Below, piece after piece: positions 8,134-29,961 of a DNA stretch of 31,670 nt. Location: IMG/VR virus record IMGVR_UViG_3300027797_000087, positions 1 through 31,670 of that record; one strand, written 5' to 3'. The DNA is from a virus. Within the stretch, counting starts at the first letter, position 1. Each line of letters starts with the position of its first letter. A program made the translations under genes and the position numbers. The notes beneath the pieces were generated by a model. The model was not told the origin of the DNA. It made no database searches and saw only the letters and a program-made list of their open reading frames with translations.

Positions 8134-8165
8134 TACACATGAATAATTATTAATAGAGAGCGACA

Positions 8166-10067: not shown

Positions 10068-10079
10068 GAGTTATATTAG

Positions 10080-10087
10080 CATAAATA
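10080..10087 (+). promoter_or_regulatory. Candidate T4-type late promoter (CATAAATA)
   Basis: CATAAATA keeps the ATAAATA core of the T4 late consensus and ends 21 nt before the ATG at 10109. An AAGGAA ribosome binding site (10095-10100) lies between them. It sits in the 41-nt gap between the third and fourth fibre genes. Confidence 0.5.
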
Positions 10088-10108
10088 CTACAATAAGGAA
10101 CGAGCGAA

Positions 10109-16639: not shown

Positions 16640-17397
16640 TGTACGACATTGTGTTTATATCATTCAATGAACCAGATGCTGATAGTCGATATTCTATTTT
16701 AGTAAAACGAGTATTAAAATTAAAAAACGGTATTCATAGAGTACATGGTGTTAATGGAATTCATCAAGCTCATATAGCCGCCGCAAAACTTGTACGTACC
16801 AAAATGTTTTGGGTAATTGATGCAGATGCTGATATACTTCCTAACTTTAAATTTGATATAGATTTAGATCCTAGCGAAGAAGATATTGTACACGTTTGGA
16901 GAAGTATTAATCCAATTAATGGATTAGAATATGGTTATGGCGGCGTTAAATTATTGCCAACAGGATTAACACGGTCAATGGATGTAACTAATCCAGATAT
17001 GACAACTAGTATAAGCTCTCGATTTAAAGCAATGGAAACTGTTTCAAATATCACAGCATTTAACACGGATCCTCTCAGCACATGGCGCAGTGCATTTAGA
17101 GAATGTGCTAAATTAGCCAGTAAGAGCATTAGCGGCCAAGAGGATACTGAAACAGAATACCGTTTAAAAGTTTGGACCCATACAGGTGGAGATAAACCGT
17201 TTGGAGAATACGCCAAAGGCGGTGCCAGTGCAGGTGAATGGTTTGGAAAAACTTATAAAGATAACAAAGAAATGCTAGCCAAGATAAATGATTACACTTG
17301 GCTAGAATATGAATTTAACGGGCATGTTAAAATGTTTCCACCGGAAACATTTAAAGGAGACTGGCCGCTAGAGGAAAAATCTCAGCAATCACTTTAG
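16639..17397 (+). CDS. Glycosyltransferase-like protein, pair B member 2
   Basis: A 252-residue paralogue of the preceding protein: IVFISFNEPDADSRYSILVKRV, RVHGVNGIHQAHIAAAK, and FWVIDADADILP with a DxDxD at residues 61-65. It shares NGLEYGYGGVKLL and the TWRSAFRECAKLAS segment. CGGAG lies 8 nt before the ATG, which overlaps the previous stop. Its last 47 bp run into the 3' end of thyX on the opposite strand. The C-terminus after about residue 235 (KGDWPLEEKSQQSL) lies in this overlap and is probably recently acquired or dispensable. It is predicted as a cytoplasmic sugar-nucleotide-dependent transferase; substrate unknown. Confidence 0.7.
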   Translation: MYDIVFISFNEPDADSRYSILVKRVLKLKNGIHRVHGVNGIHQAHIAAAKLVRTKMFWVIDADADILPNFKFDIDLDPSEEDIVHVWRSINPINGLEYGYGGVKLLPTGLTRSMDVTNPDMTTSISSRFKAMETVSNITAFNTDPLSTWRSAFRECAKLASKSISGQEDTETEYRLKVWTHTGGDKPFGEYAKGGASAGEWFGKTYKDNKEMLAKINDYTWLEYEFNGHVKMFPPETFKGDWPLEEKSQQSL

Positions 17398-18013
17398 CAC
17401 AAGCAACAGCAACTTCCTGATGCTCTTTCTGAGTACCGTTAGCACTACGTAGTTCAATAAAGTGTACCCAACTACGTAGTGTACCATTCATGTAAATTCT
17501 ACTTTCTGTAAGACCTTCTGGCAACACAGCACGAGCCTGTTCTTTTGCTATGCCGTTAGCAATAGCCCACTCGTACTCACGTTTAGCGGCATAGATAACT
17601 CGTTGTTGAGCCCTGAACCATTCGTTTTGTAGCAATTGATCTTCAACTGAGACGCTGTTCTGTCTGTTCTTGGGGTCTTGAAGTCTAGCTTCTCTTGTAA
17701 CAAAATTGAGATCTTTCGTTGGGTCAGCATAGCGTTGAGAGAACTCTTGGAAACTGAAACTTCTATGCCGCAAGATTTGTCTAGCAATGTCCCTAGTGGT
17801 TGTGATTTCAATACAGGCGGAGACCATTTCAAGTGGGCTCCAGTGCTGGTGTTTGACCAAGTATCGTATGAGCTTGTCAGATGTCTCGGTGTTAAGTTGG
17901 TTGCTTGGGTTGGACACACGGGCGCAATACGCAATGAGTTCCTGCGCATCTGCGATGCCCATATCTGCAAATTCTTTAGTGGGTTGGCTGTAACTGAGTA
18001 GTCGAACATGCAT
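17351..18013 (-). CDS. thyX: Flavin-dependent thymidylate synthase ThyX
   Basis: A 220-residue protein, normal length for ThyX. It makes dTMP from dUMP with FAD, NADPH and methylene-tetrahydrofolate. Residues 82-95 (RHRSFSFQEFSQRY) contain the ThyX signature RHRx7S. A Gln stands where many ThyX proteins have Asn in the extended motif. Other family features are KHQHWSPLEM (54-63), TTTRDIARQILRH just before the signature, and the C-terminal LPEGLTESRIYMNGTLRSWVHFIELR with a following TQKEHQEVA. It supplies thymidylate for phage DNA synthesis in an AT-rich genome. The ATG at 18013 follows the upstream gene closely (3 nt). Its 3' end overlaps the last glycosyltransferase gene by 47 bp in convergent orientation. 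Confidence 0.95.
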   Translation of the reverse strand: MHVRLLSYSQPTKEFADMGIADAQELIAYCARVSNPSNQLNTETSDKLIRYLVKHQHWSPLEMVSACIEITTTRDIARQILRHRSFSFQEFSQRYADPTKDLNFVTREARLQDPKNRQNSVSVEDQLLQNEWFRAQQRVIYAAKREYEWAIANGIAKEQARAVLPEGLTESRIYMNGTLRSWVHFIELRSANGTQKEHQEVAVACAKVIAEIFPLAASLL

Positions 18014-18016
18014 TAT

Positions 18017-18337
18017 TTATAACTTCTTTTTTTTAAGGAATTTTTGAGTACTTGCTTCTATGTCTTTTCTTACTTTTTCAGTGTCTAATTTAAAATCTAT
18101 ATTGTCAATTTTTTCTTCGTAAGTTCTAAAAATTTCAGCAAGGCTTTTTTCAAAGGCAGTCCAACCTTCACGTTTAGTTTTGGCTGTTATACGTATTTCC
18201 CAAATTTTGCCATCTTTAAAACTAACCAGTACGGTATGAAGATACCTCAAGGGTAACACATTTAATTGTACTTCACCAAATACTTCTGGCCAGTGTGCTA
18301 TGACATCCTTGGGAAGAATTCTTCCCTGGTTTGTCAC
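18017..18337 (-). CDS. Conserved phage protein of unknown function (106 aa)
   Basis: A GTG start is supported by the TAGTG overlap with the upstream stop. The protein reads MTNQGRILPKDVIAHWPEVFGEVQLNVLPLRYLHTVLVSFKDGKIWEI, a signature I recall from a conserved small protein of T4-like aquatic phages without assigned function. The first 50 residues look like a beta-rich domain; the C-terminal 60 residues are charged and helical (WTAFEKSLAEIFRTYEEKIDN...) and end in a Lys-rich tail (FLKKKKL), which could bind nucleic acid. It is translationally coupled to the 198-aa gene before it and followed 3 nt later by thyX. Confidence 0.7.
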   Translation of the reverse strand: MTNQGRILPKDVIAHWPEVFGEVQLNVLPLRYLHTVLVSFKDGKIWEIRITAKTKREGWTAFEKSLAEIFRTYEEKIDNIDFKLDTEKVRKDIEASTQKFLKKKKL

Positions 18338-18933
18338 TATACTTTCTTTTTGGTCGGAACCAACTCCTCGGCTTTGCGGCGCATTTCAGCGGCTTGCTTG
18401 GCCATTTTATCAGCTTGACTACGATAGAATCGTGCTTCAGTTTCGGGACTATCAAACGTAGTGGGTTCATCAGTTTGAGTTGGTTCTGCAACTTTAATAA
18501 CGGTTTCAGCTTTCTTAGATACTTTAACCTTATCTTCTAAAGATTCTTTTAGAGAAAGATCGTCAACTGACACTCCGCGTTGTTCTGCAATAACTTGATT
18601 TAACTCCGATAGTAACAAACTATACCCAGTGGTAGGAGTCATCTCAATAGCGCCTGTTGATACTTTGATTAACCGTCCAGTTGCATGTAGTGCTGGCAAC
18701 ATTCTACTACCGTCAGGAAATTGAGTTCGATCCATAGCTTCGGCAAACTCGTATGCTTCTTGACCAGAATTACTTTCTACCAAATTAATCAATGCATCGT
18801 GATATATATCCGGTAAATTTTCTGTTGGAACAATCAAGCAATAATGTGCTTCACCAGGCAGTGTTCTATATGCTATCAAACATTTTTTGTTTGTAGCTTT
18901 GACACGACCCACGTGTTTGAGTTCTTGGGCCAT
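18337..18933 (-). CDS. Conserved phage protein of unknown function (198 aa)
   Basis: The protein begins MAQELKHVGRVKATNKKCLIAYRTLPGEAHYCLIVPTENLPDIYHDALINLVESNSGQEAYEFAEAMDR, which I recognise as a conserved T4-like phage protein without known activity. Residues 1-135 form the conserved domain. From about 136 to the end it is Lys/Glu-rich and low in complexity (KVKVSKKAETVIKV, then a coiled-coil-like SQADKMAKQAAEMRRKAEEL and a basic KKKV tail). AGGAG lies about 7 nt before the ATG. It begins 1 nt after the upstream stop and overlaps the next gene by one base, so these small genes form one translational unit. No enzyme motif is visible. Confidence 0.72.
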   Translation of the reverse strand: MAQELKHVGRVKATNKKCLIAYRTLPGEAHYCLIVPTENLPDIYHDALINLVESNSGQEAYEFAEAMDRTQFPDGSRMLPALHATGRLIKVSTGAIEMTPTTGYSLLLSELNQVIAEQRGVSVDDLSLKESLEDKVKVSKKAETVIKVAEPTQTDEPTTFDSPETEARFYRSQADKMAKQAAEMRRKAEELVPTKKKV

Positions 18934-18934
18934 A

Positions 18935-19183
18935 TTATGCTCCTGTAGCTGGTGCGGCTGGCGTAGCTGGTGCTGGATTTGCGGCCTGTTGAGCTGCCAC
19001 CGATTCTAAGAATGTAGTCAATTTAGTATACGTTTGTCCAACGGCTACCATTTCGTTTGGTTTAAATGCACCACGTGAACTAGCAATATCAATGATAACT
19101 TTCATTGCATTAAGATCGTTAATTGTAAGTTCGTTTGAAGGTGCTTGTTCGCCTGCGGCGGGTTGTTGTACGGATTCAGTCAT
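18935..19183 (-). CDS. Small conserved phage protein (82 aa), Ala/Pro-rich tail
   Basis: The core LTINDLNAMKVIIDIASSRGAFKPNEMVAVGQTYTKLTTFLESV (residues 19-62) is a conserved helical domain that I associate with small proteins of T4-like aquatic phages; no function is known. The last 20 residues are an Ala-Pro-Thr-rich flexible tail and the first 18 are also disordered in appearance. AAGGAG is placed about 7 nt before the ATG in a 30-nt gap. The helical core between flexible ends would suit a small adaptor or binding protein; this is inference. Confidence 0.7.
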   Translation of the reverse strand: MTESVQQPAAGEQAPSNELTINDLNAMKVIIDIASSRGAFKPNEMVAVGQTYTKLTTFLESVAAQQAANPAPATPAAPATGA

Positions 19184-19213
19184 GAATATCTCCTTGTGTA
19201 AGTACGTAATTAG

Positions 19214-19501
19214 TTATCTTGTTTGTAAATGCGGACAGGCAATTGTGAAAAAACTTAATTCTTTCTCACTTTCAAAGCCTATTTTAGTAGTATAAACAAT
19301 GGTGTTAGTGTTGTCCAAAGTAATACCCTGTCCTACATAATACCTATTATTTAAATTCTTTCTGATCCAAGAGTCGATAGATTTGACTAAATTTGGATTA
19401 TATTTTTCTATAGCCATATACCTAAAATGCGGGCAAGCAAACTCAACCCTTCGTAAGTCAAAATAATTTAAAGGATTGGGTTTGCCGTTTTTAAGACTCA
19501 T
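19214..19501 (-). CDS. Phage protein of unknown function (95 aa), Cys-Pro-His motifs
   Basis: A 95-residue protein with two similar short motifs: FACPHFRYM near residues 21-29 and IACPHLQTR at the C-terminus (87-95). The repeated A-C-P-H suggests paired metal ligands or a symmetric structure, but this is only suggestive. The middle part (IRKNLNNRYYVGQGITLDNTNTIVYTTKIGFESEKELSFFTI) looks alpha-beta. Start ATG overlaps the stop of the VWA gene (ATGA), so it is translated with that gene and may serve the same process. No recognised family. Confidence 0.62.
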   Translation of the reverse strand: MSLKNGKPNPLNYFDLRRVEFACPHFRYMAIEKYNPNLVKSIDSWIRKNLNNRYYVGQGITLDNTNTIVYTTKIGFESEKELSFFTIACPHLQTR

Positions 19502-20682
19502 GCTTCTTCAGTTACTTGTTCGTAGTATGCGTATTCGCCCCAAGGTGGAACAATGCTGTTGTTACCGTGAATAATGAATACTGTTTCACAGTAGTTTTCA
19601 TCACCCCAAGAACCATACGGATATCCGTCAGTGAACATGATAAACTTTTTAGGGTTAATATCGTGTTCTTTCATGTATTCCCAATTGCAATCAAACTCAG
19701 TTCCGCCACCACCCATGGGCTTGTAGTCGTCAAATTCATCCATGGAATAACCGTCATAATCAGCTTCGTTGTACACTCGAGTATCAAAGCACCACACTTT
19801 AATTTTAAAGTCTTTGTATTCTTGCATAATGCCTTTGATCTCGGTTAAGAAATCTTTTGCTTGTTCGTCACCAATTGATCCAGACATGTCAATGCCCACA
19901 CAAACATCAATTGTTTCTTGAAATTGTGTACCAGGCAAGATTGCGTTCATATGCCAACCCTTGCGGTTGGGACGCATAAACGAATAATCATTTTTGATGA
20001 TACTTTGGATTTGCTGACGAATAATTTCACGCCAGTTCATTTTAGGTTCAGTGAGTTCTTTAATCATGCGTTGCACATTAGCCGGAGTATTTCCCGCACC
20101 CGCTGCCTGCGCCGCCTGAATTGTTGCTTCGCGAATTTCATCACGAATTTGTTTTAATTCTTCTTTGGTGTATGTGGGCTTTCCGTCCTTGCCGTTTTCG
20201 CCCCAGTCAATGTGGTCGTCAAGTAATTGACCTAAAGCGTCTAACTCTTGCTCGTCCATTTCGTCAAAGATTTTGTCGTAGACTTCTTCTGCACCCATAC
20301 CATAGTATTTTGGATCATGGAAGATTTTAATACCTTCGATATCGTGTTCACCGATACGATCACGTACCAATTGTCCATTTACACAATAGTCAGCGGCAAT
20401 GTTAAAGATCTTAGCATTACGGCCTTCACGACGGCCCATGTGATCAAATACATTGTGCAAAATTTCGTGGGCAATAACAAACTCGACTTGTTTAACTGAG
20501 AGCGGAGTAAAAAATTCACGATTGAAATAAATGGTTCTACCGTCTGTTGCGGCTGTACCCATCCATTCACTTCCTTCTTCAATTTTTAGGCGTGTAGCCA
20601 TGTTACCAAAGAAAGGGTGACGCAATAACAAACCAACTCGTGCTATAATAATTTTATCTATGATCGGATCTACATGCGACAT
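19498..20682 (-). CDS. VWA-like protein with HExxH metallopeptidase-like domain (DUF2201 type), MoxR partner
   Basis: 394 residues in two domains. The N-terminal domain has AHEILHNVFDHMGRR with HEILH at residues 72-76, the zinc-peptidase HExxH pattern, and a nearby NIAADYCVNGQLV helix (94-106). A Glu/Gln-rich helical linker follows (140-215). The C-terminal VWA domain has the metal-ion-dependent adhesion site DMSGS (265-269), Thr328 in MGGGGTEF and Asp352 in TDGYP, so all MIDAS elements are present. This architecture matches the DUF2201 family, usually encoded beside MoxR ATPases, as here. It probably binds a substrate complex that the ATPase remodels; proteolysis is possible but unproven. 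AAGGAG precedes the ATG, and the gene has its own promoter with a hairpin in the spacer. Confidence 0.87.
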   Translation of the reverse strand: MSHVDPIIDKIIIARVGLLLRHPFFGNMATRLKIEEGSEWMGTAATDGRTIYFNREFFTPLSVKQVEFVIAHEILHNVFDHMGRREGRNAKIFNIAADYCVNGQLVRDRIGEHDIEGIKIFHDPKYYGMGAEEVYDKIFDEMDEQELDALGQLLDDHIDWGENGKDGKPTYTKEELKQIRDEIREATIQAAQAAGAGNTPANVQRMIKELTEPKMNWREIIRQQIQSIIKNDYSFMRPNRKGWHMNAILPGTQFQETIDVCVGIDMSGSIGDEQAKDFLTEIKGIMQEYKDFKIKVWCFDTRVYNEADYDGYSMDEFDDYKPMGGGGTEFDCNWEYMKEHDINPKKFIMFTDGYPYGSWGDENYCETVFIIHGNNSIVPPWGEYAYYEQVTEEA

Positions 20683-20711
20683 AATTGCTCCTTAACTGTT
20701 ACTATGTATAT

Positions 20712-20740
20712 AGTATAACACCTCCCGAAGGAGGTGTCAA
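20712..20740 (-). promoter_or_regulatory. Sigma70-type promoter before the VWA gene
   Basis: On the minus strand TTGACA (20740-20735), a 17-bp spacer and TATACT (20717-20712) match the sigma70 consensus at 11 of 12 positions. It lies in the 74-nt gap after the MoxR gene and points at the VWA gene, whose ATG is 30 nt from the -10 box. The spacer is almost entirely a palindrome, described separately. Confidence 0.75.
20718..20737 (-). terminator. CUUCGG-loop hairpin inside the promoter spacer
   Basis: Read on the minus strand, ACACCTCC-TTCG-GGAGGTGT forms a perfect 8-bp stem closed by C(UUCG)G, one of the most stable RNA tetraloops. It lies 19 nt after the stop codon of the MoxR gene, so it would sit at the 3' end of that mRNA. 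No clean U-tract follows (TTATACT), so it may be a weak terminator, an mRNA-end stabiliser, or a DNA operator. CUUCGG hairpins are known in T4 intergenic mRNA regions. Confidence 0.6.
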
Positions 20741-20756
20741 ATGGTGCTAAACCAAA

Positions 20757-21857
20757 TTATTTGCGACCTTGTTTTTCGGTTGCCGCAGAAATATACTTAC
20801 CAAATTTAGCGTGGAACGCATCAAAGCATTTGATTTCGTCCGGATCTAACGGCAGTTTGTAAGTGCTCAATGCCAACTTGGTACCCATAATAACCAATTC
20901 TGTTTCAAAGTTATTCATCATAAATTCAAAAAAGTTGTTGGTCTGGTCATTCCAATTCTTAGCATTCTTGTCGCAAGCATCTTTCAATTCGTAGCACAAA
21001 GACACAGTCAAAGAATACATTGCTGAAATTTCTTTTGAGTCCATCTTCTTAACTTTGCCGCTCAAAATGTCTGTAGGGTTAGGCATTTTACTAGAGTGTT
21101 TGCGGTGAGCCATAAACTTAATAGCCAAACCCTCTCCAACAGAACCCGATACCAAGTCAGTCAATGTGTCAGAATCGCAGTCATCGTCGTGCAATAACTC
21201 GCTAACAAACGACCAGCTACGAGGAGTAGCAAACGCACGTGAACTAGACTTAGGATCAAAATCGTACAAGTCCTTTTTAGAGAAGCTCAAAAAGCCAACC
21301 ACGTCCTTGTGAATCTTGTTTTCAGCGGCCCACTCAAAATAGTCTTCCCATTCGACAGTCATTTCCAAGTGAACAAAACGGTTAGCCAGGGGAGCAGGCA
21401 TACGATAAGTAACACCCTTGTCAGTTTCACGGTTACCAGCGGCAACCATTACCACGTTATCGGGCAATTCATAAGTGCCAACTTTACGGTTAAGCACCAA
21501 CTGATAAGCCGCGGCCTGAACGCTGGGAGCGGCACTATTCATTTCATCCATAAACAGGATAATTTGTTTATAATTTTTAGCAAATTCTTTGCTGGGCAAT
21601 TCACCAGGAGGTGCCCATACCATTGTGTTAGAATTTGAATCAAAGTATGGAATACCTTTGATATCGGTAGGTTCCCACAAACTCAAACGAACGTCGATGA
21701 CGTGAGCTTCAAGTTCAAACCCCAATTGTTTAATAATATCCGACTTACCAATTCCGGGAGGACCCCACAGGAAAATTGGACGTTTATTTTTAAACGCTTT
21801 GCGGAGGGATTTTTTAGCACCTTTTGGGCCCACAGTGCGAGAAGTAATTTCTGCCAT
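20757..21857 (-). CDS. MoxR-type AAA+ ATPase
   Basis: A 366-residue AAA+ ATPase. Walker A is GPPGIGKS at 32-39, Walker B is LFMDEMNSA at 101-109, sensor 1 is VAAGNRE at 138-144, and LANRF at 157-161 carries the arginine-finger-type residue. The DVRLSLWEPTDIKGIPY segment (55-71) and the PAPLANRF order fit MoxR-type ATPases, which remodel partner proteins and often help metal or cofactor insertion together with a VWA-domain protein. The very next gene encodes that VWA protein. The C-terminal 150 residues are a helical lid. AGGAAC precedes the ATG. The gene has its own near-perfect sigma70-type promoter and ends in the CUUCGG hairpin. Confidence 0.9.
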   Translation of the reverse strand: MAEITSRTVGPKGAKKSLRKAFKNKRPIFLWGPPGIGKSDIIKQLGFELEAHVIDVRLSLWEPTDIKGIPYFDSNSNTMVWAPPGELPSKEFAKNYKQIILFMDEMNSAAPSVQAAAYQLVLNRKVGTYELPDNVVMVAAGNRETDKGVTYRMPAPLANRFVHLEMTVEWEDYFEWAAENKIHKDVVGFLSFSKKDLYDFDPKSSSRAFATPRSWSFVSELLHDDDCDSDTLTDLVSGSVGEGLAIKFMAHRKHSSKMPNPTDILSGKVKKMDSKEISAMYSLTVSLCYELKDACDKNAKNWNDQTNNFFEFMMNNFETELVIMGTKLALSTYKLPLDPDEIKCFDAFHAKFGKYISAATEKQGRK

Positions 21858-21909
21858 TTTCGTTCCTATCGTAGTAAAAAAATTGTTGTTTAACGCTGTC
21901 TATGTATGT

Positions 21910-21938
21910 ATTATACGGGAGAAGCAGTGAAGTGTCAA
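21910..21938 (-). promoter_or_regulatory. Consensus sigma70-type promoter before the MoxR gene
   Basis: On the minus strand TTGACA (21938-21933), a 17-bp spacer and TATAAT (21915-21910) match both boxes perfectly. The ATG is about 52 nt downstream of the -10 box. It stands in the 98-nt gap between the 133-aa gene and the MoxR gene, one of the largest gaps in this block. It would be read by host RNA polymerase early after infection. Confidence 0.85.
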
Positions 21939-21955
21939 CGTCTTTTTAAACTATT

Positions 21956-22357
21956 TTAGTCCAGTTTTGCCAAATCTTTATCGCGTTCGTTCATGGCCTT
22001 TAGTAGCCCAAATTTACGAATGTCGTCCGAAAACAACATTAGCTCAAAACCTTTGCGCTCGGAAAATACAGTAATGCTCATATTGGTAAGATAATATGGA
22101 CAATCCACATACCTTTCCAAAAATATAATTGTTTGTGGACTAAGTTCAATGGGCTCGGTGAATGGAACTTCGTACTCTTTCAAGTCCAATTCTTTAACCA
22201 AAAAATCATATCCGTCGTCGCTCAGTCGAAAATTAGTTTGTTTACCAGCACGAGTACTTTGCCACCATTTTCGGCTAAACAATTTTACATTGGTTTCGTC
22301 TATGCTTTTGCCCCACTGCTGTAAAAATATTTTGGTTAGAGCATCTCTTGTGATCAT
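21956..22357 (-). CDS. Conserved phage protein of unknown function (133 aa)
   Basis: The protein reads MITRDALTKIFLQQWGKSIDETNVKLFSRKWWQSTRAGKQTNFRLSDDGYDFLVKE, then IELSPQTIIFLERYVDCPYYLTNMSITVFSERKGFELMLFSDDIRKFG. I recognise it as a conserved small protein of T4-like aquatic phages, without known function. The first half could be a winged-helix-like part (LRLSDDGYDFLVKEL is typical of 'D-G-Y/L-F' wings), which would make it a nucleic-acid-binding protein; this is weak inference. It starts in an ATGA overlap with the previous gene and is the last gene before the MoxR promoter. Confidence 0.72.
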   Translation of the reverse strand: MITRDALTKIFLQQWGKSIDETNVKLFSRKWWQSTRAGKQTNFRLSDDGYDFLVKELDLKEYEVPFTEPIELSPQTIIFLERYVDCPYYLTNMSITVFSERKGFELMLFSDDIRKFGLLKAMNERDKDLAKLD

Positions 22358-22638
22358 TTTATTATTGTGCCTTGCGTTAATTTGACCACTTGGAAGTCTG
22401 TAGTTCCAAATGTTAAATTAAGTTTTTTAGCAAGATTAATGGCATGCCCTGGATTTGAAAAACTTGTTTTCTTATATTTTGGTCCAGGATAGCTGGTAAG
22501 GCTATTGAAGCTTTTTAGATTGAATGGTTCGTTTTTATAGAAAACAGCCCAAATGGCTTCCGCTTCCAAGATCTGCTCAGATTTATAAGTTTTTTTGTTA
22601 GTGTATTCTAACAATACTTGTGGTTTAGGCCTTGACAT
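22354..22638 (-). CDS. Conserved phage protein of unknown function (94 aa)
   Basis: The ATG at 22638 (MSRPKPQVLLEYTNKKTYKSEQILEAEAIWAVFYKNEPFNLKSF) is preferred: an in-frame ATG 24 nt upstream touches a late-promoter-like motif and has no room for a ribosome binding site. The family consensus I remember also begins at MSRPKP. The middle is a conserved AIWAVFY-x(3)-PFNLKSFNSL-x-SYPGPKYKKTSFSNPGHA block followed by LAKKLN. No enzyme motif is visible. It overlaps the next gene by ATGA. Confidence 0.72.
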   Translation of the reverse strand: MSRPKPQVLLEYTNKKTYKSEQILEAEAIWAVFYKNEPFNLKSFNSLTSYPGPKYKKTSFSNPGHAINLAKKLNLTFGTTDFQVVKLTQGTIIK

Positions 22639-22663
22639 ATATGCATATCCAAATGTACGCATA

Positions 22664-22671
22664 TATTTATC
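22664..22671 (-). promoter_or_regulatory. Candidate T4-type late promoter (GATAAATA)
   Basis: On the minus strand GATAAATA ends 25 nt before the preferred ATG at 22638, and lies in the short gap after the 81-aa gene. It resembles the motif found before three structural genes on the plus strand. With the upstream ATG at 22662 it would abut the start codon, which supports the downstream start. Confidence 0.4.
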
Positions 22672-22673
22672 TA

Positions 22674-22919
22674 TTATTTGTTAGAAAAGCCGCCACCGTC
22701 CATGGAAACAGAAATAGGTTCTTCGGTTACACCGCGTTTTAATGCGTTGTACATTGTTTCGTAATCTTGATGCAGTTGATCCATTAATTCAATAAGGGCT
22801 AGATTCATTAGCCTAGCCTGTTGAATTGGAATCTTAACCTCTTTGCTTTGAGATAATTCTGCAGACCTTACTATTTGGGCAAACTGAGTGATTGGGCTGA
22901 GATTAATCGGATTTTGCAT
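22674..22919 (-). CDS. Small conserved phage protein (81 aa)
   Basis: The protein MQNPINLSPITQFAQIVRSAELSQSKEVKIPIQQARLMNLALIELMDQLHQDYETMYNALKRG is all helical in appearance and ends in a short Gly-rich tail. I associate its NPINLSPITQFAQIVRSAE opening with a small conserved protein of T4-like aquatic phages of unknown function. AGGTA lies about 8 nt before the ATG. The start overlaps the upstream gene by 17 nt. Possibly a helical-bundle oligomer; nothing more can be said. Confidence 0.7.
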   Translation of the reverse strand: MQNPINLSPITQFAQIVRSAELSQSKEVKIPIQQARLMNLALIELMDQLHQDYETMYNALKRGVTEEPISVSMDGGGFSNK

Positions 22920-23382
22920 TAGACAGTACCTGTTTCATCTCAAACTCTGTTTTAAACGGACCTTTATATGGATTACGTTCCAGTGTGATCAATTTGGGAC
23001 AAAAGCTCTTAACCCATCCTTTATTGAATTGGATAGTGTAGTAACCTGCACAGTACAAACTTTTACTGGCGTTGCTTTTAGTAAACAGAGGTAATTTATT
23101 TCTAACATCATACATGCTGTTATAAGGATTTACACTAGTTGGAAATCCGTGGCAATCAGTTGAATCTGTACCAGTAACTTTAACCTTTTTATTAGTTAAA
23201 AAGAAATCTTTACCAAACTGCCTAGTGAGATCGTCTTTTTTATTAAACATGACCTCGCCGCTAGTACTGCTAAGAATAAATTTGTTATTTTCTTTTTTAT
23301 GCAGTGTAGCAATTTTAGAACCATCCTTTTCAACAATCCAAAATTTTCCATCTATTATTGGCTTTGCATATATCTCTGTCAT
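22903..23382 (-). CDS. Conserved phage protein of unknown function (159 aa)
   Basis: The 159-residue protein begins MTEIYAKPIIDGKFWIVEKDGSKIATLHKKENNKFILSS, and its second half has a strongly conserved block, CHGFPTSVNPYNSMYDVRNKLPLFTKSNASKSLYCAGYYTIQFNKGWVKSFCPKLITLERNPYKGPF. I recognise this as a T4-like aquatic phage protein, often found next to the RNase H-type nuclease, without known activity. The block holds Cys and His residues (CHG, YCAGYY, FCPKL), so metal binding is conceivable. Its ATG overlaps the stop of the nuclease gene by one base (TAATG-type). Confidence 0.74.
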   Translation of the reverse strand: MTEIYAKPIIDGKFWIVEKDGSKIATLHKKENNKFILSSTSGEVMFNKKDDLTRQFGKDFFLTNKKVKVTGTDSTDCHGFPTSVNPYNSMYDVRNKLPLFTKSNASKSLYCAGYYTIQFNKGWVKSFCPKLITLERNPYKGPFKTEFEMKQVLSNAKSD

Positions 23383-24368: not shown

Positions 24369-24796
24369 TCTACTTGAGCCCTGCCATTTGGCAATTTACT
24401 TACGTTAATATAACCAGCAGTTGCTCGACTTGGATCTTGTCCAGCCTCTGCCAACATGTTGCCTGCTAAATCTCTGAACCAGCGATCCACAATTTCTTCT
24501 TCTGGATCGCCATCAAAACCGTAACCTGCTTGTTTCAATTGTACTACAAATTCGTCGTTCCAGTCAAGCTCAAAAAACCCATTCCTAATGTTTTCTTTAT
24601 TAACATGGGTATTCAAAACAGCAACATATGGCTCACCTTTGGCAGTAGCACGGGCTTTTGGTGTTAACTTGGCCTTTATTTCTTCGTCTTGAGCTTTTTT
24701 AGTTTCTTCTTGAGCAATAGTCAATGCCGCTTGAGCTTCTGTTTTTTCAGTTTCAAGTTTATCTATTCCAAATAATTTTTTAATTAGTTTTTTCAT
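24365..24796 (-). CDS. Conserved phage protein of unknown function, N-terminal coiled coil (143 aa)
   Basis: The ATG at 24796 (MKKLIKKLFGIDKLE) is preferred because it overlaps the queE stop (TGATG) and has GGGGA at a good distance; the in-frame ATG 12 nt upstream has no clear ribosome binding site. Residues 1-48 are a Lys/Glu/Ala-rich coiled coil. The conserved domain follows: GEPYVAVLNTHVNKENIRNGFFELDWNDEFVVQLKQAGYGFDGDPEEEIVDRWFRDLAGNMLAE. I know this domain only as a T4-like phage protein of unknown role. It stands between queE and the 5' nuclease, both nucleic-acid-related. Confidence 0.72.
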   Translation of the reverse strand: MKKLIKKLFGIDKLETEKTEAQAALTIAQEETKKAQDEEIKAKLTPKARATAKGEPYVAVLNTHVNKENIRNGFFELDWNDEFVVQLKQAGYGFDGDPEEEIVDRWFRDLAGNMLAEAGQDPSRATAGYINVSKLPNGRAQVE

Positions 24797-25659
24797 CAAG
24801 TTCCCCATTCGTTTTTAAACAACGGCACTTGTAAACGGTCACTGTAGCGCCAGCCACGTTTCATTGCCGCCAGTGCTACGTTTTTTGCATTTAAATTGTA
24901 AACACTTTCAACACCGCCCACTGGCATCAAATATACATGCCCTTTAAATCCTGCTGTTCTAAATTCTTCTACTGCACGTTCTGCATCTGCAATGTCTGCT
25001 TCTGTTGCAACAACAAATTTAAGATATGCTGTGCCAACTTGTTCATATTTGCAAACTACTTCCGGACAAATTGCTTCTTCCCACTTCTCACCACTTGCTG
25101 GTAGTTTAGCACTTACGGAGAATGTGACTTCTCTATTCAATTGATGATTGGTGATCTGCCATTTTACTAGATATTCTTTAAACTCTGGTGTAAGTTTCTG
25201 AGTACCGTTTGTTTCAAACGTAATTTCTTTCAAACCAGCCATCTTAGGATGATCTAACAACTCTGGATAAGCCTTCTGCCAGCCCAACAATGGCTCACCG
25301 CCGGTGATAACCAAGTGTTCATTTTGCCATTCACCGTGCGGAATAATTTCTGTAATTCTGTCGGCAATTGCTTCGCTAGTAAGCATTGGACTAAGATCTT
25401 TAAAGTCAGGATGCCAACTGGCATAACTGTCACATCCTGTGCTTACTAGTGGAAGTTCATTATAGGTAGGCCACTTATTATACTTAATTTGTTTTTCTGC
25501 CAGCACATCTGCTTCGACGCTCAATGTACCACGTGGCATGCCAAAGCCTGCACATTTAAAGTTGCATCCAAATGTGCGTAAGAATACACTAGGCACTCCC
25601 ATGTATCTACCTTCACCCTGTATACTATAAAATAACTCAGCTATTTTTATTTTGCTCAT
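24796..25659 (-). CDS. queE: QueE-like radical SAM enzyme (7-carboxy-7-deazaguanine synthase)
   Basis: A 287-residue radical SAM protein. QueE rearranges 6-carboxytetrahydropterin to 7-carboxy-7-deazaguanine, on the way to preQ0. The start MSKIKIAELFYSIQGEGRYMGVPSVFLRTFGCN is the QueE opening (SIQGEG, G-x-P-x-x-F-x-R-x-x-GCN). GGEP occurs as ITGGEPLL at about 118-125, and FETNGT follows. Cys32 and Cys36 fit the first two cluster ligands, but the third is not at the usual C-x-x-C place; Cys76 in TGCDSYASW, which looks like the family's CDTxYAW, is the likely third, after a 39-residue insertion. AGGGA precedes the ATG, overlapping the upstream gene by 23 nt. Together with FolE it points to 7-deazaguanine synthesis. 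Confidence 0.85.
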   Translation of the reverse strand: MSKIKIAELFYSIQGEGRYMGVPSVFLRTFGCNFKCAGFGMPRGTLSVEADVLAEKQIKYNKWPTYNELPLVSTGCDSYASWHPDFKDLSPMLTSEAIADRITEIIPHGEWQNEHLVITGGEPLLGWQKAYPELLDHPKMAGLKEITFETNGTQKLTPEFKEYLVKWQITNHQLNREVTFSVSAKLPASGEKWEEAICPEVVCKYEQVGTAYLKFVVATEADIADAERAVEEFRTAGFKGHVYLMPVGGVESVYNLNAKNVALAAMKRGWRYSDRLQVPLFKNEWGT

Positions 25660-25987
25660 ATCTTTCCCTAAATCTTTCTACATCGTCGATTGCTGATTGT
25701 AACACAGTTGCATAGTTAAGAGCAACCTGTTTTTTCATAATTAAATTTGCTTCAGTATCAATATAACCTTTGGTTAACAATGTCCAAATGTGATACCACC
25801 GTGTCTTTGACCAAAAGTTAGTTCTAGTTGTAGTGTAAATGGTTACAGTGATTCCTGTATCTTCAGCTTCGACCCAAACATTATGATCACAATCATTGCT
25901 ACTGCACTCGCATACAACTCTATATGTTTTTGAGTCGCCCCAACTGTTTTGTTTTAAAATTCCTTCTGCGGGTATTTCGGGTGTCAT
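25637..25987 (-). CDS. Conserved phage protein of unknown function (116 aa)
   Basis: The ATG at 25987 is chosen because it overlaps the upstream stop (ATGA) and follows GGAGAAG; an in-frame ATG 18 nt upstream (MVWRRS) would lie deeper in the previous gene. The protein has KTYRVVCECSSNDCDHNVWVEAED near residues 20-45, with Cys-x-Cys-x4-Cys-x-His that could bind a metal, then VTIYTTTRTNFWSKTRWYHIWTLLTKGYIDTEANLIMKKQVALNYATVL. I know it as a conserved protein of T4-like aquatic phages without known activity. It overlaps queE by 23 nt. Confidence 0.68.
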   Translation of the reverse strand: MTPEIPAEGILKQNSWGDSKTYRVVCECSSNDCDHNVWVEAEDTGITVTIYTTTRTNFWSKTRWYHIWTLLTKGYIDTEANLIMKKQVALNYATVLQSAIDDVERFRERYEQNKNS

Positions 25988-26199
25988 GCTTCTTCTCCAA
26001 ACCATTCATCTACCATGGATTCTGCTTCTTGTTGTGTGAGCGCAGGCACAAATATACGAGCAGGTTCTCCTGTTGTATGTTGTACATTAAATTTAATTAC
26101 ACCTCTTGGTATATGGTGTATGTCTCGTTCCACAACAAACTCTTTCAGATGTTTAGCACGATTAATTAATTGATCAGTTAAGTCTTTAGCAGTTGTCAT
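25984..26199 (-). CDS. Small phage protein of unknown function (71 aa)
   Basis: A 71-residue protein: MTTAKDLTDQLINRAKHLKEFVVERDIHHIPRGVIKFNVQHTTGEPARIFVPALTQQEAESMVDEWFGEEA. It consists of a helix, a beta-rich middle and an acidic C-terminal helix. AAGGATATTAT lies before the ATG. It is 7 nt downstream of the possible nuclease gene and overlaps the next gene by ATGA, so it belongs to the folE-queE operon. No family with a known function is recognised. Confidence 0.68.
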   Translation of the reverse strand: MTTAKDLTDQLINRAKHLKEFVVERDIHHIPRGVIKFNVQHTTGEPARIFVPALTQQEAESMVDEWFGEEA

Positions 26200-26206
26200 A
26201 ATATCC

Positions 26207-26872
26207 TTAGAACTTATAAATGGGTAGTGTGTATATTGGATCAGTCCAACATTTTTTGTGAAATAGAATTTCCATTCTACTTTTGCTATTGTAATATCTT
26301 ACCTTTAAAAAGTCTTGATCTGTTATGCCCAAAATATTCATCATAGTACCGGTAAACGTACATAGTGTATCTGAAAACATGGGAACAGTATCGGTAACTT
26401 CAAATGCACATAGATTACAATCTAAAGTTGCTTTTTCTCTTAGAATTCCAATAAGATAATATTTTTTAAAAGATTGTGCTTTTGCAAACCAGCCATTAAC
26501 ATATAAATTCCATAAAGACTGTTTATCTTTATTAATAAAGAATTGTTTTGCATCTTGATCAAAATTTTGATACATGCTGGCTTCTGTAGTTTGCTTTGAT
26601 TGTGGGCCATAGCTAAGTGATTTGACATCAGCACCAACACCTGGCGTAATCATAACATCGATTAAACTATGTCCTGCACCATTCCATACAGCACCCGGTA
26701 TGCTATCAGAAACAACATATTCCCAAAGCTCTTTACCCATGCTTAATGGTCTTCCTAGTGCAATATGTTTCCTCAACGGAGCCACTATGGCATCCATTTC
26801 AGACTGAAACGTAGCAACAAAACCAGGCCCAAGAAGAGCCATAGTTTGTTGTGCAGTTAACGGGACTATCAT
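26207..26872 (-). CDS. Phage protein of unknown function, possible PD-(D/E)XK nuclease fold (221 aa)
   Basis: No confident family. The 221-residue protein has Glu48 in KELWEYV, then Asp72 in HSLIDVMITPGVGADVKSLSYG and the pair Asp82-x-Lys84. The order E...D-x9-D-V-K is that of PD-(D/E)XK nucleases, with the helix, the metal-binding strand and the DxK motif. After it comes a Gln-rich stretch (SKQTTEASMYQNFDQDAKQF), then YYLIGILREKATLDCNLCAFEV, compatible with further core strands. The start overlaps the folE stop (ATGA), so the two are translated together. A nuclease next to a DNA-modification-type pathway would fit host DNA degradation or protection, but this is inference. Confidence 0.55.
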   Translation of the reverse strand: MIVPLTAQQTMALLGPGFVATFQSEMDAIVAPLRKHIALGRPLSMGKELWEYVVSDSIPGAVWNGAGHSLIDVMITPGVGADVKSLSYGPQSKQTTEASMYQNFDQDAKQFFINKDKQSLWNLYVNGWFAKAQSFKKYYLIGILREKATLDCNLCAFEVTDTVPMFSDTLCTFTGTMMNILGITDQDFLKVRYYNSKSRMEILFHKKCWTDPIYTLPIYKF

Positions 26873-27639
26873 CGTGGTGCAAATTCCTGTTGCATTTTAA
26901 TATTGTCAAAAAACTCTTTCTTTGTACCATGGTCGTCTTTAAACGCACCTTTAAGTACTGTAGTTTGTGTAAGACTAGAATGTGCCATAATGCCGCGATT
27001 CTCGCAACAACCGTGCGTGGCTTGAATATAAACACCTAGGTCTGTTGCACCTGTTGCTTTTTGGATTTCTCTAGCTATGTCGTTACACAATTCTTCTTGG
27101 AGGGTACCTCGACGAGCACACCATTGTGCAATACGTGTATACTTGGACAGTCCGATGAGTTTTTCTGCGGCAATGATTCCGATGTAGGCAACGCCAACAA
27201 CAGGCTGATGATGATGACTACACATACTACGGAGCTCACTCCTAACCACCAACATACCTTCGTACCTATCTTCACTATCATTTGGAAAAGCTGTTGCATC
27301 TGGTGCTGGTTCATATCTACCTGCCATTATTTCATTAAAATACATTTTAGCAAGACGCCTTGCTGTGCCCTTTGAGTTAGGATCGGTTTCTCGATCAATA
27401 AGCAAACGATCAAGAACTGTTTCAAACGCTTCTGCGGCTTCGTCAATTAGTTGTTCTTTGACATGTTCATTAGTAACGTATTCACTGACGTTATCGCCAG
27501 CCCAGAACCGTTTACCTTCACGTTTCATTTTAAAGCGAAGATAGTTGCCTAAATACTTTTCTTCTTTATAGTCTTTGTCGTCATCTCCTTGCTGTTCTGC
27601 GCCAGCAAGTAGATTTTTGTATATTATGGATTCAGTCAT
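26869..27639 (-). CDS. folE: GTP cyclohydrolase I (FolE)
   Basis: A 256-residue enzyme that converts GTP to dihydroneopterin triphosphate, the first step to tetrahydrofolate and to 7-deazaguanines. The N-terminal 60 residues are an extension relative to E. coli FolE (222 aa). The catalytic part has DPNSKGTARRLAKMY (86-100), the zinc-site segment MCSHHHQPVVG (139-149; Cys140, His143), GLSKYTRIAQWCARR (163-177) and HGCCENRG (209-216, Cys211 as third zinc ligand), followed by SSLTQTTVLKG. A Ser replaces the Glu of the usual CEHH. It has its own sigma70-type promoter and AGGAG before the ATG, and heads the folE-queE operon. Confidence 0.93.
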   Translation of the reverse strand: MTESIIYKNLLAGAEQQGDDDKDYKEEKYLGNYLRFKMKREGKRFWAGDNVSEYVTNEHVKEQLIDEAAEAFETVLDRLLIDRETDPNSKGTARRLAKMYFNEIMAGRYEPAPDATAFPNDSEDRYEGMLVVRSELRSMCSHHHQPVVGVAYIGIIAAEKLIGLSKYTRIAQWCARRGTLQEELCNDIAREIQKATGATDLGVYIQATHGCCENRGIMAHSSLTQTTVLKGAFKDDHGTKKEFFDNIKMQQEFAPR

Positions 27640-27657
27640 TATTACTCCTATGTTCTT

Positions 27658-27686
27658 ATTATATAGGTTTATTTAGGTTTTTGCAA
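27658..27686 (-). promoter_or_regulatory. Sigma70-type promoter before folE
   Basis: On the minus strand TTGCAA (27686-27681), a 17-bp spacer and TATAAT (27663-27658) match the sigma70 consensus at 10 of 12 positions, with a perfect -10 box. The ATG of folE is 18 nt beyond the -10 box, and AGGAG lies between. The -35 box lies in the 3' end of the small membrane-protein gene, so it may give folE early expression independent of the upstream operon. Confidence 0.7.
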
Positions 27687-27884
27687 GTTATTTGTTGCTC
27701 GAAGTTGCCTACATGCTTCGCGCATTTCGTTAGTAAAGTCTGGACTTATTTCACTCCAAGTGCAGTCAATCCTAACAACATCACCTCGTTTTGGAAGTGC
27801 TAAAAACATCATTGGTATAACTATTAAAAACACAATGATGACCACTGCTATTTTTATAGTCTCTCGCTTAGGAGTATTCTGCAT
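27669..27884 (-). CDS. Small membrane protein (71 aa)
   Basis: A 71-residue protein: basic N-terminus (MQNTPKRETIK), one transmembrane helix at about residues 10-30 (IAVVIIVFLIVIPMMFLALP), then a soluble C-terminus with RGDVVRIDCTWSEISPDFTNEMREACRQLRA. Positive residues precede the helix, so the N-terminus should be inside and the C-terminus in the periplasm. The C-x-W-S-EISPDFT-x-EMREACR block looks conserved, and its two cysteines could form a disulphide outside. AGGA lies 9 nt before the ATG. It overlaps the upstream gene by 31 nt. Function unknown. Confidence 0.72.
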   Translation of the reverse strand: MQNTPKRETIKIAVVIIVFLIVIPMMFLALPKRGDVVRIDCTWSEISPDFTNEMREACRQLRATNNLQKPK

Positions 27885-28054
27885 AGGTCTGCATCCTTTT
27901 GATTTTTGAAATTAAAATACATAGCATCGTGTTTTGGATGGGTTGCATATCTTTCACCGGGTAACCCAAACACTTCTAACACCATGGCACAGGTTTCATT
28001 CCACCAAAACCCGTTTTGATTATCCCATACTACAGTAACAGTGGTGTCTGTCAT
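27854..28054 (-). CDS. Small phage protein of unknown function (66 aa)
   Basis: A 66-residue protein: MTDTTVTVVWDNQNGFWWNETCAMVLEVFGLPGERYATHPKHDAMYFNFKNQKDADLCRILLSERL. The pattern of an N-terminal strand with aromatic residues, a helix (ETCAMVLEVFG), a strand (DAMYFNF) and a final helix (KDADLCRILLSERL) suggests a small alpha-beta fold. It starts in an ATGA overlap with the HIT gene and so is translated with it. Not recognised. Confidence 0.66.
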   Translation of the reverse strand: MTDTTVTVVWDNQNGFWWNETCAMVLEVFGLPGERYATHPKHDAMYFNFKNQKDADLCRILLSERL

Positions 28055-28419
28055 TTACGATAGTTTCCTCGTTCTGGAATAACATGTCTAACTCCTCCAC
28101 GAGGATCTGCCATGTCACCCTTACGCCTGGGAATCATATGGACATGGGGATACATGACCGTTTGGCCAGCAGCCTCGCCACAGTTTTGCCCGATGTTGAA
28201 ACCGTCCCATTTTTTTGACGCAACTCCATCGTATCCAAACTTGTATGCGGCTTTGAAACATTCGTGGAGATTTTCCATTTTTGTTTCGGTAGGCACAAAT
28301 AACAAATGTCCTTCTGTAACAGCATAAGCATCCTTAAACACCCAAAAAGTTTTAGTTCTATATTCTATCTCAGTCCACGGAGCAAGTTTATTTGCCAGTG
28401 CTTTTTCTAACTCTGTCAT
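28051..28419 (-). CDS. HIT-family protein (histidine triad variant)
   Basis: A 122-residue HIT-domain protein; the family hydrolyses or transfers nucleotidyl groups from nucleoside phosphate derivatives. The ATG at 28419 (MTELEKALANKL) is chosen because GGAAGAAG precedes it; an in-frame ATG 48 nt upstream lies inside the previous gene. HIT features are WVFKDAYAVTEGHLLFVPT, FNIGQNCGEAAGQTV and MYPHVHMIPRRKGD. Against the usual H-x-H-x-H pattern, the first position is Tyr90 while the catalytic middle His92 and His94 remain, so activity is possible. The neighbour phosphoribosyltransferase gene makes a role in nucleotide salvage plausible. It overlaps the next gene by ATGA. Confidence 0.85.
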   Translation of the reverse strand: MTELEKALANKLAPWTEIEYRTKTFWVFKDAYAVTEGHLLFVPTETKMENLHECFKAAYKFGYDGVASKKWDGFNIGQNCGEAAGQTVMYPHVHMIPRRKGDMADPRGGVRHVIPERGNYRK

Positions 28420-28570
28420 CTTCTTCCAACATTTTAAGCTCGTCTTTGAGATATGCAAGATAATCAATCAACGTAGTTCTTTTCTTTTCGTTATTTTCAC
28501 CTTGCACGTTCTTGATATCTTCTTCGACACGTTTTATTTTTTGAATTAGCAATTCAATTTCACCGTTCAT
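28388..28570 (-). CDS. Small coiled-coil protein (60 aa)
   Basis: A 60-residue charged helical protein: MNGEIELLIQKIKRVEEDIKNVQGENNEKKRTTLIDYLAYLKDELKMLEEDDRVRKSTGK. Heptad-like hydrophobic spacing (Leu, Ile, Val, Ile / Leu, Tyr, Leu, Leu) on both sides of a GENNEKK turn suggests a helical hairpin. The start overlaps the membrane-protein stop by ATGA, and the 3' end overlaps the HIT gene by 32 nt. No enzyme motif; function unknown. Confidence 0.68.
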   Translation of the reverse strand: MNGEIELLIQKIKRVEEDIKNVQGENNEKKRTTLIDYLAYLKDELKMLEEDDRVRKSTGK

Positions 28571-28758
28571 TTTCTATACCTAATTCCGCTTGCACCGCCC
28601 AGTAACAATGCAAAAGCCGCCCAAGTTTCAAATGTAAATGGAATATTTAAAGATGGAAACAGTGTATTAAGACTCCATATTCCCAACAACGGTCCAATAG
28701 CAACGGCAATTACAACTAGAGTAATACCAAAAACAAGTTTAATCAATGCAGATGTCAT
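28567..28758 (-). CDS. Small membrane protein (63 aa)
   Basis: The ATG at 28758 overlaps the phosphoribosyltransferase stop (ATGA) and is preferred to an in-frame ATG 63 nt upstream that lies deep in that gene. The protein has two hydrophobic segments: ALIKLVFGITLVVIAVAIGPLLGIW (about 4-28) and FETWAAFALLLGGASG (about 43-58), joined by a loop SLNTLFPSLNIPF. The IGPLLGIWSLNTLFPSLNIPFTFETW block is one that I recall in small phage membrane proteins. Probably a two-helix inner-membrane protein; function unknown. Confidence 0.72.
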   Translation of the reverse strand: MTSALIKLVFGITLVVIAVAIGPLLGIWSLNTLFPSLNIPFTFETWAAFALLLGGASGIRYRK

Positions 28759-29246
28759 AGCCAAAATTCCTCCCAAGGATAAACCAACCAACAATCTTCT
28801 TCTGCTTTGTTTACAGTCCATACATGGTAATCTGGATCTTTAAATTGACTGCTGATATTATGTGTTAAAAACGCAAATCGAACAGTATCTCCCCAAATGG
28901 TAGACCAGTTAGGGTGACTAGGTAATGCATTTGACTGCCAATCTTCTTTGATCCATGCAACAGTAGATCCTTGATCGTTGATGTCGTCAACAATGAGTAT
29001 TTTTTTACCTTCAAATGCATCTTCAGACATGCCACAATTACTAACACAGTCGCCTCCATCACGTAAACTGATGTCTAAACTATTCATTTTAATACCAGTA
29101 TACTGACTAAGAAGATTTGCCGGAATAAGTCCACCACGGCCAATGCCAACAATGTAGTCTGGCCGCCAGTAATGATTGCTCATTTGACGAGCAATGTCTA
29201 AACAAGCACCCTGTACTTGTTGCCAGTTATAGTATATTTTTTTCAT
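28755..29246 (-). CDS. Phosphoribosyltransferase (type I fold)
   Basis: A 163-residue protein with the PRPP-binding loop KILIVDDINDQGSTV (82-96), in which two Asp residues precede the flexible Gly-Ser-Thr turn, and an N-terminal GIGRGGLIPANLLSQ (34-48) typical of type I phosphoribosyltransferases. These enzymes attach a base to ribose 5-phosphate using PRPP, mostly in nucleotide salvage; the base used here cannot be named from sequence. The segment GGDCVSNCG (64-72) has two Cys that may matter for regulation. The start overlaps the previous stop (ATGA). It fits the nucleotide-metabolism theme of this strand. Confidence 0.87.
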   Translation of the reverse strand: MKKIYYNWQQVQGACLDIARQMSNHYWRPDYIVGIGRGGLIPANLLSQYTGIKMNSLDISLRDGGDCVSNCGMSEDAFEGKKILIVDDINDQGSTVAWIKEDWQSNALPSHPNWSTIWGDTVRFAFLTHNISSQFKDPDYHVWTVNKAEEDCWLVYPWEEFWL

Positions 29247-29482
29247 AAAGTTAATGCGTATGCAAGTGAATTTAATTCACTCTTAGTCATAAAAAAATTG
29301 TAAGTGCTTGACTCTGTTACTTCGCCTTTACTATTCAATGACTCGTTAATAAGATCAATATTGAATGTGCCTTTTGGGCTTAAACATTCAAATTTTTCCA
29401 TGCGAAGTCTAAAACTTTCAGACTCTTTAATAACTATTTCCTTTGCAGTGTGTGCAACTGATTCGTGTAATTCTCTCATCAT
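29243..29482 (-). CDS. Small phage protein of unknown function (79 aa)
   Basis: A 79-residue protein: MMRELHESVAHTAKEIVIKESESFRLRMEKFECLSPKGTFNIDLINESLNSKGEVTESSTYNFFMTKSELNSLAYALTL. Two adjacent ATG codons are possible starts; the first gives ATGA with the upstream stop and the second gives TGATG, and GGAG suits the second slightly better. The protein is mixed helix-strand without a recognised motif. It is coupled to the phosphoribosyltransferase gene by another ATGA. Confidence 0.65.
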   Translation of the reverse strand: MMRELHESVAHTAKEIVIKESESFRLRMEKFECLSPKGTFNIDLINESLNSKGEVTESSTYNFFMTKSELNSLAYALTL

Positions 29483-29961
29483 TCTTCTCCTTTAATTGCT
29501 TCAAATGTTCTGTACTTACCCAAAGCATGTATGTATTCGTCATACAACTTCTTTAGCTTTGGATGTTTCTTTTCAAGTATAACATCTCTTTCAGGAATAT
29601 GCAAGACTTTTTCAATGGTATCTAACCGTTCTTCCAAGTCTCTATCATTTATAACAACCTTGCCTTTGACCGTTAATGTTGCATCTTTTTCCAAAACAAT
29701 TTCGTCTTTGCCAGCAGGTACAGACATAATGGCTTTGCCGTTACTGTTATTAAATTGAGTACTTGAATTAATCCAACTTGTTCCGTTAGATCCAGTTGTT
29801 AAAAACTGTCCGCTACTACCGCCTCCTAGACTTGTATTGTTAGTGGTATAAACTTGTCCAACTGTTAGTGGTGGAATTGCGCCATACCCTGGTGAAATAT
29901 TTACAGTACTTCCAATTAATCCGTTTTTAATGTTGTTTGTTTGCTTCGAGGTAGTTGTCAT
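29479..29961 (-). CDS. Conserved phage protein, Gly/Ser/Asn-rich N-terminus (160 aa)
   Basis: The ATG at 29961 (MTTTSKQTNNIKNG) is preferred to an in-frame ATG 24 nt upstream, which lies deeper in the cupin gene. Residues 1-75 are Gly/Ser/Thr/Asn-rich (SLGGGSSGQFLTTGSNGTSWINSSTQF), like fibre or display proteins. The C-terminal half (KDEIVLEKDATLTVKGKVVINDRDLEERLDTIEKVLHIPERDVILEKKHPKLKKLYDEYIHALGKYRTFE) is a conserved helical domain I recall from T4-like phages, starting with a short beta segment and a coiled coil. It overlaps the cupin gene by 35 nt. Function unknown, possibly structural. Confidence 0.7.
   Translation of the reverse strand: MTTTSKQTNNIKNGLIGSTVNISPGYGAIPPLTVGQVYTTNNTSLGGGSSGQFLTTGSNGTSWINSSTQFNNSNGKAIMSVPAGKDEIVLEKDATLTVKGKVVINDRDLEERLDTIEKVLHIPERDVILEKKHPKLKKLYDEYIHALGKYRTFEAIKGEE

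Follow-up and report, generated by a model that had tools for sequence, protein, structure and literature searches.

The window, by which we mean the whole stretch of DNA analysed, is a record of 31,670 bases from a virus of bacteria. On its minus strand, positions 19214–21857 hold a gene for a MoxR-type ATPase, a gene for a VWA protein whose N-terminal domain is a zincin, and a gene of 95 codons that is ATGA-coupled to the latter, and all three open reading frames were confirmed (Table 1). Judging from the families, the MoxR ring remodels a client, which the VWA partner selects.

Table 1. Genes and regulatory features around the ATPase and VWA genes (positions in the window).
Feature	Position	Strand	Remarks
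MoxR-type AAA+ ATPase, 366 aa	20757..21857	−	phrog_1297; N4 gp24 family
VWA cochaperone with N-terminal zincin metallopeptidase domain, 394 aa	19498..20682	−	DUF2201_N + DUF2201; phrog_1314; N4 gp25 family
95-aa gene, 4-nt overlap with VWA stop (ATGA)	19214..19501	−	predicted beta-alpha-beta-beta-alpha; apparent accessory of phage group
ATPase sigma-70 promoter, TTGACA-17-TATAAT (12/12)	21910..21938	−	conservation in relatives
VWA sigma-70 promoter, TTGACA-17-TATACT (11/12)	20712..20740	−	conservation in relatives
Hairpin ACACCTCC-TTCG-GGAGGTGT filling the VWA promoter spacer	20718..20737	−	covarying stem, YNMG-type loops
82-aa gene	18935..19183	−	phrog_13789; near the pair in several jumbo phages too
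198-aa gene	18337..18933	−	phrog_15894; near the pair in jumbo phages too

The ATPase matches the Pfam family AAA_3 (MoxR-type, PF07726) with 30.2 bits against a cut-off of 27, and phrog_1297 of the PHROGs collection over nearly its full length (1.4e-99). Its Walker A motif is GPPGIGKS (~21741-21764) and its Walker B motif LFMDE (~21543-21557); the sensor-1 residue is Asn142 (~21432-21434), and R160 (~21378-21380) is a candidate arginine finger. Conservation was scored over sequences clustered at 70% identity, which gave 24 clusters for the ATPase and 25 for the VWA protein. Over the 24 clusters, both Walker motifs, N142, R160 and R213 vary little or not at all, so that the Walker A, Walker B, sensor 1 and arginine-finger residues, which the preliminary description had called intact, are conserved as well as present. 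Two other assignments were rejected: the bpMoxR domain of the MoxR–vWA–beta-propeller ternary conflict system scores 17 bits, below its cut-off of 27, and PADLOC gives only weak partial P-loop matches to known anti-phage defence systems (DolB, 5.9e-4; IetA, 4.1e-3).

The partner combines two Pfam domains, the DUF2201_N metallopeptidase domain (1.8e-38, 133.1 bits against a cut-off of 23.2) and the VWA-like DUF2201 domain (1.1e-13, 51.9 bits against a cut-off of 26.4), and matches phrog_1314 near full-length (1.2e-110, PHROGs). The zinc motif HEILH lies at ~20455-20469, and the MIDAS consists of DMSGS (~19876-19890) plus T328 and D352. Over the 25 clusters, H72, H76, D98 and the MIDAS residues D265, S267, S269 and T328 are invariant, E73 and D352 nearly so, and H81 and N102 invariant or nearly so; its invariance makes D98 a candidate third zinc ligand. 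Of the 162 VWA sequences in all, 160 have an intact HExxH and 161 an intact MIDAS. The earlier reading of the locus as a phage MoxR–VWA/HEILH pair, in which the partner has both a complete MIDAS and an HEILH motif, is thus borne out by families and active sites alike. The catalytic Glu of HExxH is replaced by Gln in Atu_ph07 (HQILH; NC_042013.1, L217) and by Gly in the V5 record (HGVGH; DQ832317.1, L221), with the remaining zinc ligands retained in both. We dropped this loss as a sign of a dispensable peptidase, because HE is present in other vequintaviruses and the V5 gene appears to be split; the HGVGH of V5 may be a sequencing error.

PHROGs labels phrog_1314 as an “HNH endonuclease”, and many phage records repeat the label (e.g., NC_019526.1, NC_071039.1, and NC_042013.1). 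This identity was rejected, with zero HNH families among the Pfam matches up to E = 1. The label looks like an annotation error that has spread, and in these records it hides a MoxR–VWA system.

Of 50,697 phage records, 747 have a relative of the VWA protein and 813 one of the ATPase, and the host counts of the two sets are almost the same. The carriers include N4-like phages, vequintaviruses, RaK2-like and PA5oct-like phages, the jumbo phages Atu_ph07 and Phosso, phage G, and cyanophage S-TIM5, so that some 750 cultured phages, among them the N4-like and many jumbo phages, keep a pair that is core in the N4-like group. Adjacency is not universal: among the vequintavirus stretches read, only that of the Certrevirus has the ATPase gene next to the VWA gene.

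The pair (phrog_1297/phrog_1314) is therefore already known rather than new, as it is also found in the literature: N4 genes 24 and 25 belong to the 14 core genes of N4-like phages and lie on middle transcripts (PMC4193335), a two-subunit MoxR chaperone of Bacillus phage 0305φ8-36 was named in an earlier paper (PMC2147016), and a 2021 study of jumbo phages describes a MoxR–vWA pair with a fused metallopeptidase, proposing that it acts in virion assembly and proteolytic processing (PMC7824862). The preliminary description had held that the phage role of such pairs is not established; this stands in that we found no experiment in the literature showing the role of the pair in a tailed phage, and nothing on the pair in the literature on gene essentiality and RaK2 proteomics, but a role had already been proposed. 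The group 2.2 jumbo-phage pair of that study (ASV44729/ASV44728) resembles the one in the window, with MoxR adjoining a vWA protein that has an N-terminal metallopeptidase domain and with the same families by description. Unlike the function, which is proposed there, the 95-aa gene, the promoters, and the hairpin found here are not reported in the passages searched. The likeness extends to N4 gp24/gp25: RaK2 members of both families are annotated as N4 gp24-like and gp25-like, and the two families are adjacent in the N4-like phage nithesis, as they are here. However, the N4-like loci are without the 95-, 82-, and 198-aa genes, and the VWA identity is only ~25–27%.

A new finding at this locus is that a conserved consensus sigma-70 promoter, early in type, precedes each of the two genes, that of the motor and that of the partner. 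Sites of at least 10/12 lie upstream of the ATPase gene in 105 of 121 relatives, compared to 4 in shuffled controls, and upstream of the VWA gene in 136 of 158, compared to 3; for eight neighbouring genes, the same threshold is reached in none to 10 of 57–137 relatives. The argument rests on this conservation, since weaker sites are no more frequent than chance in the sigma-70 scan overall (63 found against 64 expected). A second candidate, TATANTANATACATAG as a phage-specific promoter, is not above chance across the window. Expression of the two proteins, each from its own promoter, probably falls in the early or middle phase of infection.

The strong, conserved host-type promoters that both genes carry would also be expected if an early-made pair dismantled, modified, or cleaved a host complex, with the VWA protein picking the target and the 95-aa protein serving as an adaptor specific to its phage group. 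The small downstream gene does vary among phage groups, as parts that follow the host should. The catalytic core, however, is conserved in phages whose hosts differ widely, and N4-like phages have it among their core genes, so a constant phage client is likelier than a host target, and the ATPase has been found by virion mass spectrometry. We consider a role in host takeover unlikely.

The 17-bp spacer of the VWA promoter is itself a hairpin (z −3.6), which covaries and has stable YNMG-type tetraloops inside a conserved promoter; this too is new. A stem of at least 7 pairs is found in 97 of 100 near relatives, compared to 2 of 100 shuffled sequences, and in 7 of 10 relatives at 50–75% identity, and is absent in most distant relatives. 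Among 38 versions of the hairpin, with six arm sequences, three pairs are changed on both sides, and the covariation score is 0.413 compared to 0.099 after shuffling. As these versions were selected for pairing, the percentage paired among them is biased, whereas the count of 97 in 100 is free of that selection. The loops are of the YNMG type in 31 of the 38, although this type was not a condition of the search. Because the arms change while pairing is kept and the loops are stable, we favour an RNA hairpin, formed in message that reads through from the ATPase gene, rather than a fixed site for a protein; having no clear U-run, it would be a weak terminator at best. Rfam gave no match in 17300-23000. 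Phage T4 has CUUCGG intercistronic hairpins, and the hairpin of the window is likewise intergenic with a stable UNCG-type tetraloop, but differs in that it exactly fills a sigma-70 promoter spacer.

A scan of virus contigs for the pattern of the element alone, YNMG loop required, returned at least 80 elements, of which at least 67 precede VWA genes, at least one follows an ATPase gene at a contig end, and at least 12 lie elsewhere. The arrangement TTGACA-hairpin-TATAAT occurs before unrelated genes, such as clamp-loader-like and lipoprotein-like ones (L352, L367, L398, L406, L415, and others), and usually lies 26-52 nt upstream of the next ATG. Given this recurrence in other phage contigs, a hairpin in the promoter spacer may be a general phage regulatory module, and it stands as a separate regulatory idea.

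Downstream of the 95-aa gene come the 82-aa and 198-aa genes, which lie close to the pair also in RaK2-like phages, XaC1, Vibrio 2.275.O, and others; in PA5oct, they are near the pair but on the opposite strand. Among the matches listed, all 40 of 40 cultured phages with the 198-aa family have the VWA gene, at a distance of ~7 kb in Atu_ph07 and ~15 kb in Phosso. A structure model of the 198-aa protein, made from one sequence, reached a pLDDT of 50, too low for use. The neighbours of the pair in the window are metabolic genes, including ThyX, QueE, GTP cyclohydrolase, and a cysteine-dioxygenase-like gene. One minus-strand stretch, 24796-31632, holds QueE-like, GTP-cyclohydrolase-like, phosphoribosyltransferase-like, and cysteine-dioxygenase-like genes; PA5oct has a similar order of QueE, 5'-exonuclease, and the MoxR–VWA pair. 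The 3' ends of ThyX, on the minus strand, and of a 252-aa gene, on the plus strand, share 47 nt (17351-17397) in a tail-to-tail overlap.

Such neighbours, together with a thymidylate synthase close to the pair in several lineages, would suit a pair that inserts a metal or cofactor into a phage metabolic enzyme, or otherwise activates it. The bacterial pairs RavA–ViaA, NorQ/NorD, CbbQ/CbbO, and CobS/CobT have the same general build, an AAA+ ring with a MIDAS-bearing VWA partner (PMC7159879). Even so, the pair is retained as the enzymes around it change from lineage to lineage (ThyX or Td; RNA ligase in Atu_ph07 and Phosso). To our knowledge, the DUF2201_N peptidase domain is absent from the VWA partners of all four bacterial pairs, and a peptidase domain is foreign to the activases CobS/CobT, NorQ/NorD, and CbbQ/CbbO, on which enzyme maturation would be modelled. 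This explanation therefore seems improbable to us.

The 95-aa gene is real, and its product is exactly 95 aa long in 84 of 93 distinct homologues. It had been described as a gene fused by ATGA to the VWA gene and coding for a small Cys-Pro-His protein with two A-C-P-H motifs. The coupling holds, and both motifs are present in the copy in the window (residues 22-25 and 88-91); they are not features of the family. The Cys of the first is Ala in 22 of the 93 homologues, the His of the second is kept in 38 and lost in 55, and seven more distant contigs have, directly after the VWA gene, a divergent homologue with no intact ACPH. With neither motif conserved, the reading as a metal site fails. What the family does conserve is PHF, W45, NL-N-RYY, and GFE-EKELSFF. 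AlphaFold2 predicts a β-α-β-β-α arrangement with modest confidence (pLDDT 72). Fold searches of viral and PDB structures with this model gave nothing at E 0.001 or better and returned only generic small alpha/beta folds, and a PDB sequence search with the family profile gave nothing better than E 0.09.

Within its phage group, the 95-aa gene is strictly linked to the VWA gene, a further new observation. Among 199 distinct VWA genes, it follows downstream on the same strand in 146, within 150 nt in 140 of these and farther away in 6, while 41 more distant VWA genes have no homologue detectable by sequence and 12 loci are cut short. The figure of 146 cannot be read as an unbiased proportion of VWA loci, because many loci were retrieved with the 95-aa query itself; all the 95-aa homologues found nevertheless follow a VWA gene, save one located at a contig end. 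Presence of the gene beside the pair across phages, proposed earlier as a check, is hence found among near relatives and not at the 41 distant loci. The gene was found neither in cultured phages (tblastn, E up to 0.1) nor in cellular genomes. With no homologue at any of the 41, the 95-aa gene is, judged by sequence, an accessory of one phage group and lies outside the core machine.

The 95-aa protein could be a bystander, a small alpha/beta phage protein coupled to the VWA gene by genome packing and with no functional link, a view that we rate somewhat below even odds. The 41 distant loci would fit this, as would the proteins weakly similar to it at several places in Phosso-like phages and the ~490-910 nt of other DNA that separate the two genes in six loci. 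Against it, every one of the 146 checkable cases follows VWA on the same strand, mostly with an overlapping start, and the divergent homologues hold the same place. Moreover, Phosso-like jumbo phages have a small protein of similar pattern at this position. Profile comparison of the two (hhalign) gave E 0.0022 and 13% probability, and E 2.7e-5 and 74% with L313 added, compared to 0.029 or worse for unrelated neighbours; the likeness is suggestive only. In L062, L065, L032, and L064, a gene of ~182-189 aa, class I methyltransferase-like by eye, is inserted between the VWA and 95-aa genes. A bolder picture, of a three-part MoxR–VWA–small-adaptor machine whose core genes are uncoupled by a 29-bp dual element, acting both as sigma-70 promoter of the VWA–adaptor transcript and as a read-through RNA hairpin that ends or protects the ATPase message, is tentative and on balance doubtful.

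As for the client of the pair, virion proteomes offer a lead. The MoxR ATPase of PA5oct (gp149) is marked ESI-MS/MS, and the phAPEC6 virion list includes the MoxR ATPase as gp265c with 6 peptides, an assignment made by mass (49.52 kDa compared to 49.51 kDa for MoxR of the near-identical 121Q). The VWA protein was not found among the virion mass-spectrometry hits seen for these two jumbo phages, PA5oct and phAPEC6. The phAPEC6 preparation also lists soluble proteins (thymidylate synthase and a PhoH-like protein), and the ATPase in virion preparations is possibly carry-over. Genes annotated as structural form a run ahead of the pair in 121Q, and roseophage RPP1 encodes virion proteins close to its gp24/gp25 counterparts (PMC4193335). 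A precedent exists in the Acidianus two-tailed virus, in which p618, the MoxR protein, makes up a major part of the virion and is linked to the development of the tails; it binds the VWA protein p892, which has itself not been found in the virion (PMC4124505). That virus differs from the one studied here in being archaeal and in having a larger ATPase and a VWA partner without a peptidase domain (PMC7824862).

We propose, with a probability of about one half, that the pair is a chaperone–peptidase made early in infection, whose client is a phage protein and whose purpose is probably virion assembly, a proposal also made independently in PMC7824862. The families, the intact ATPase, MIDAS, and HExxH sites, and the two separate host-type promoters are read from the DNA itself; the steps that follow are conjectural. 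The ATPase would form a hexameric ring, on which the VWA protein would dock, holding the client through its MIDAS. ATP hydrolysis would then remodel the client and the zinc-peptidase domain would trim it, the likeliest client being a virion or tail protein that needs remodelling or clipping before assembly. Both proteins would be made early or mid infection, with some ATPase ending in particles, and the 95-aa protein, translationally coupled to VWA, may assist the VWA protein as a helper or client adaptor specific to the phage group, and not as a metal-binding protein. Assembly is favoured by the core status of N4 gp24/gp25, the nearby virion genes of RPP1, the ATPase hits in virions, and the Acidianus virus precedent, and is opposed by the early-type sigma-70 promoters, the middle rather than late expression of N4 gp24/gp25, and the metabolic neighbours in the window. 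Taken together, the promoters, the virion proteomes, and the Acidianus virus make it a testable question whether a virion protein is remodelled or cut.

The tail genes on the other strand show features of their own. Some have, by eye, the T4-late-like TATAAATA or a similar sequence upstream. Four successive tail/virion-type genes at 4331-12082 (plus strand) have N-terminal matches to phrog_15511 and phrog_14394 in common, which suggests a repeated attachment domain.
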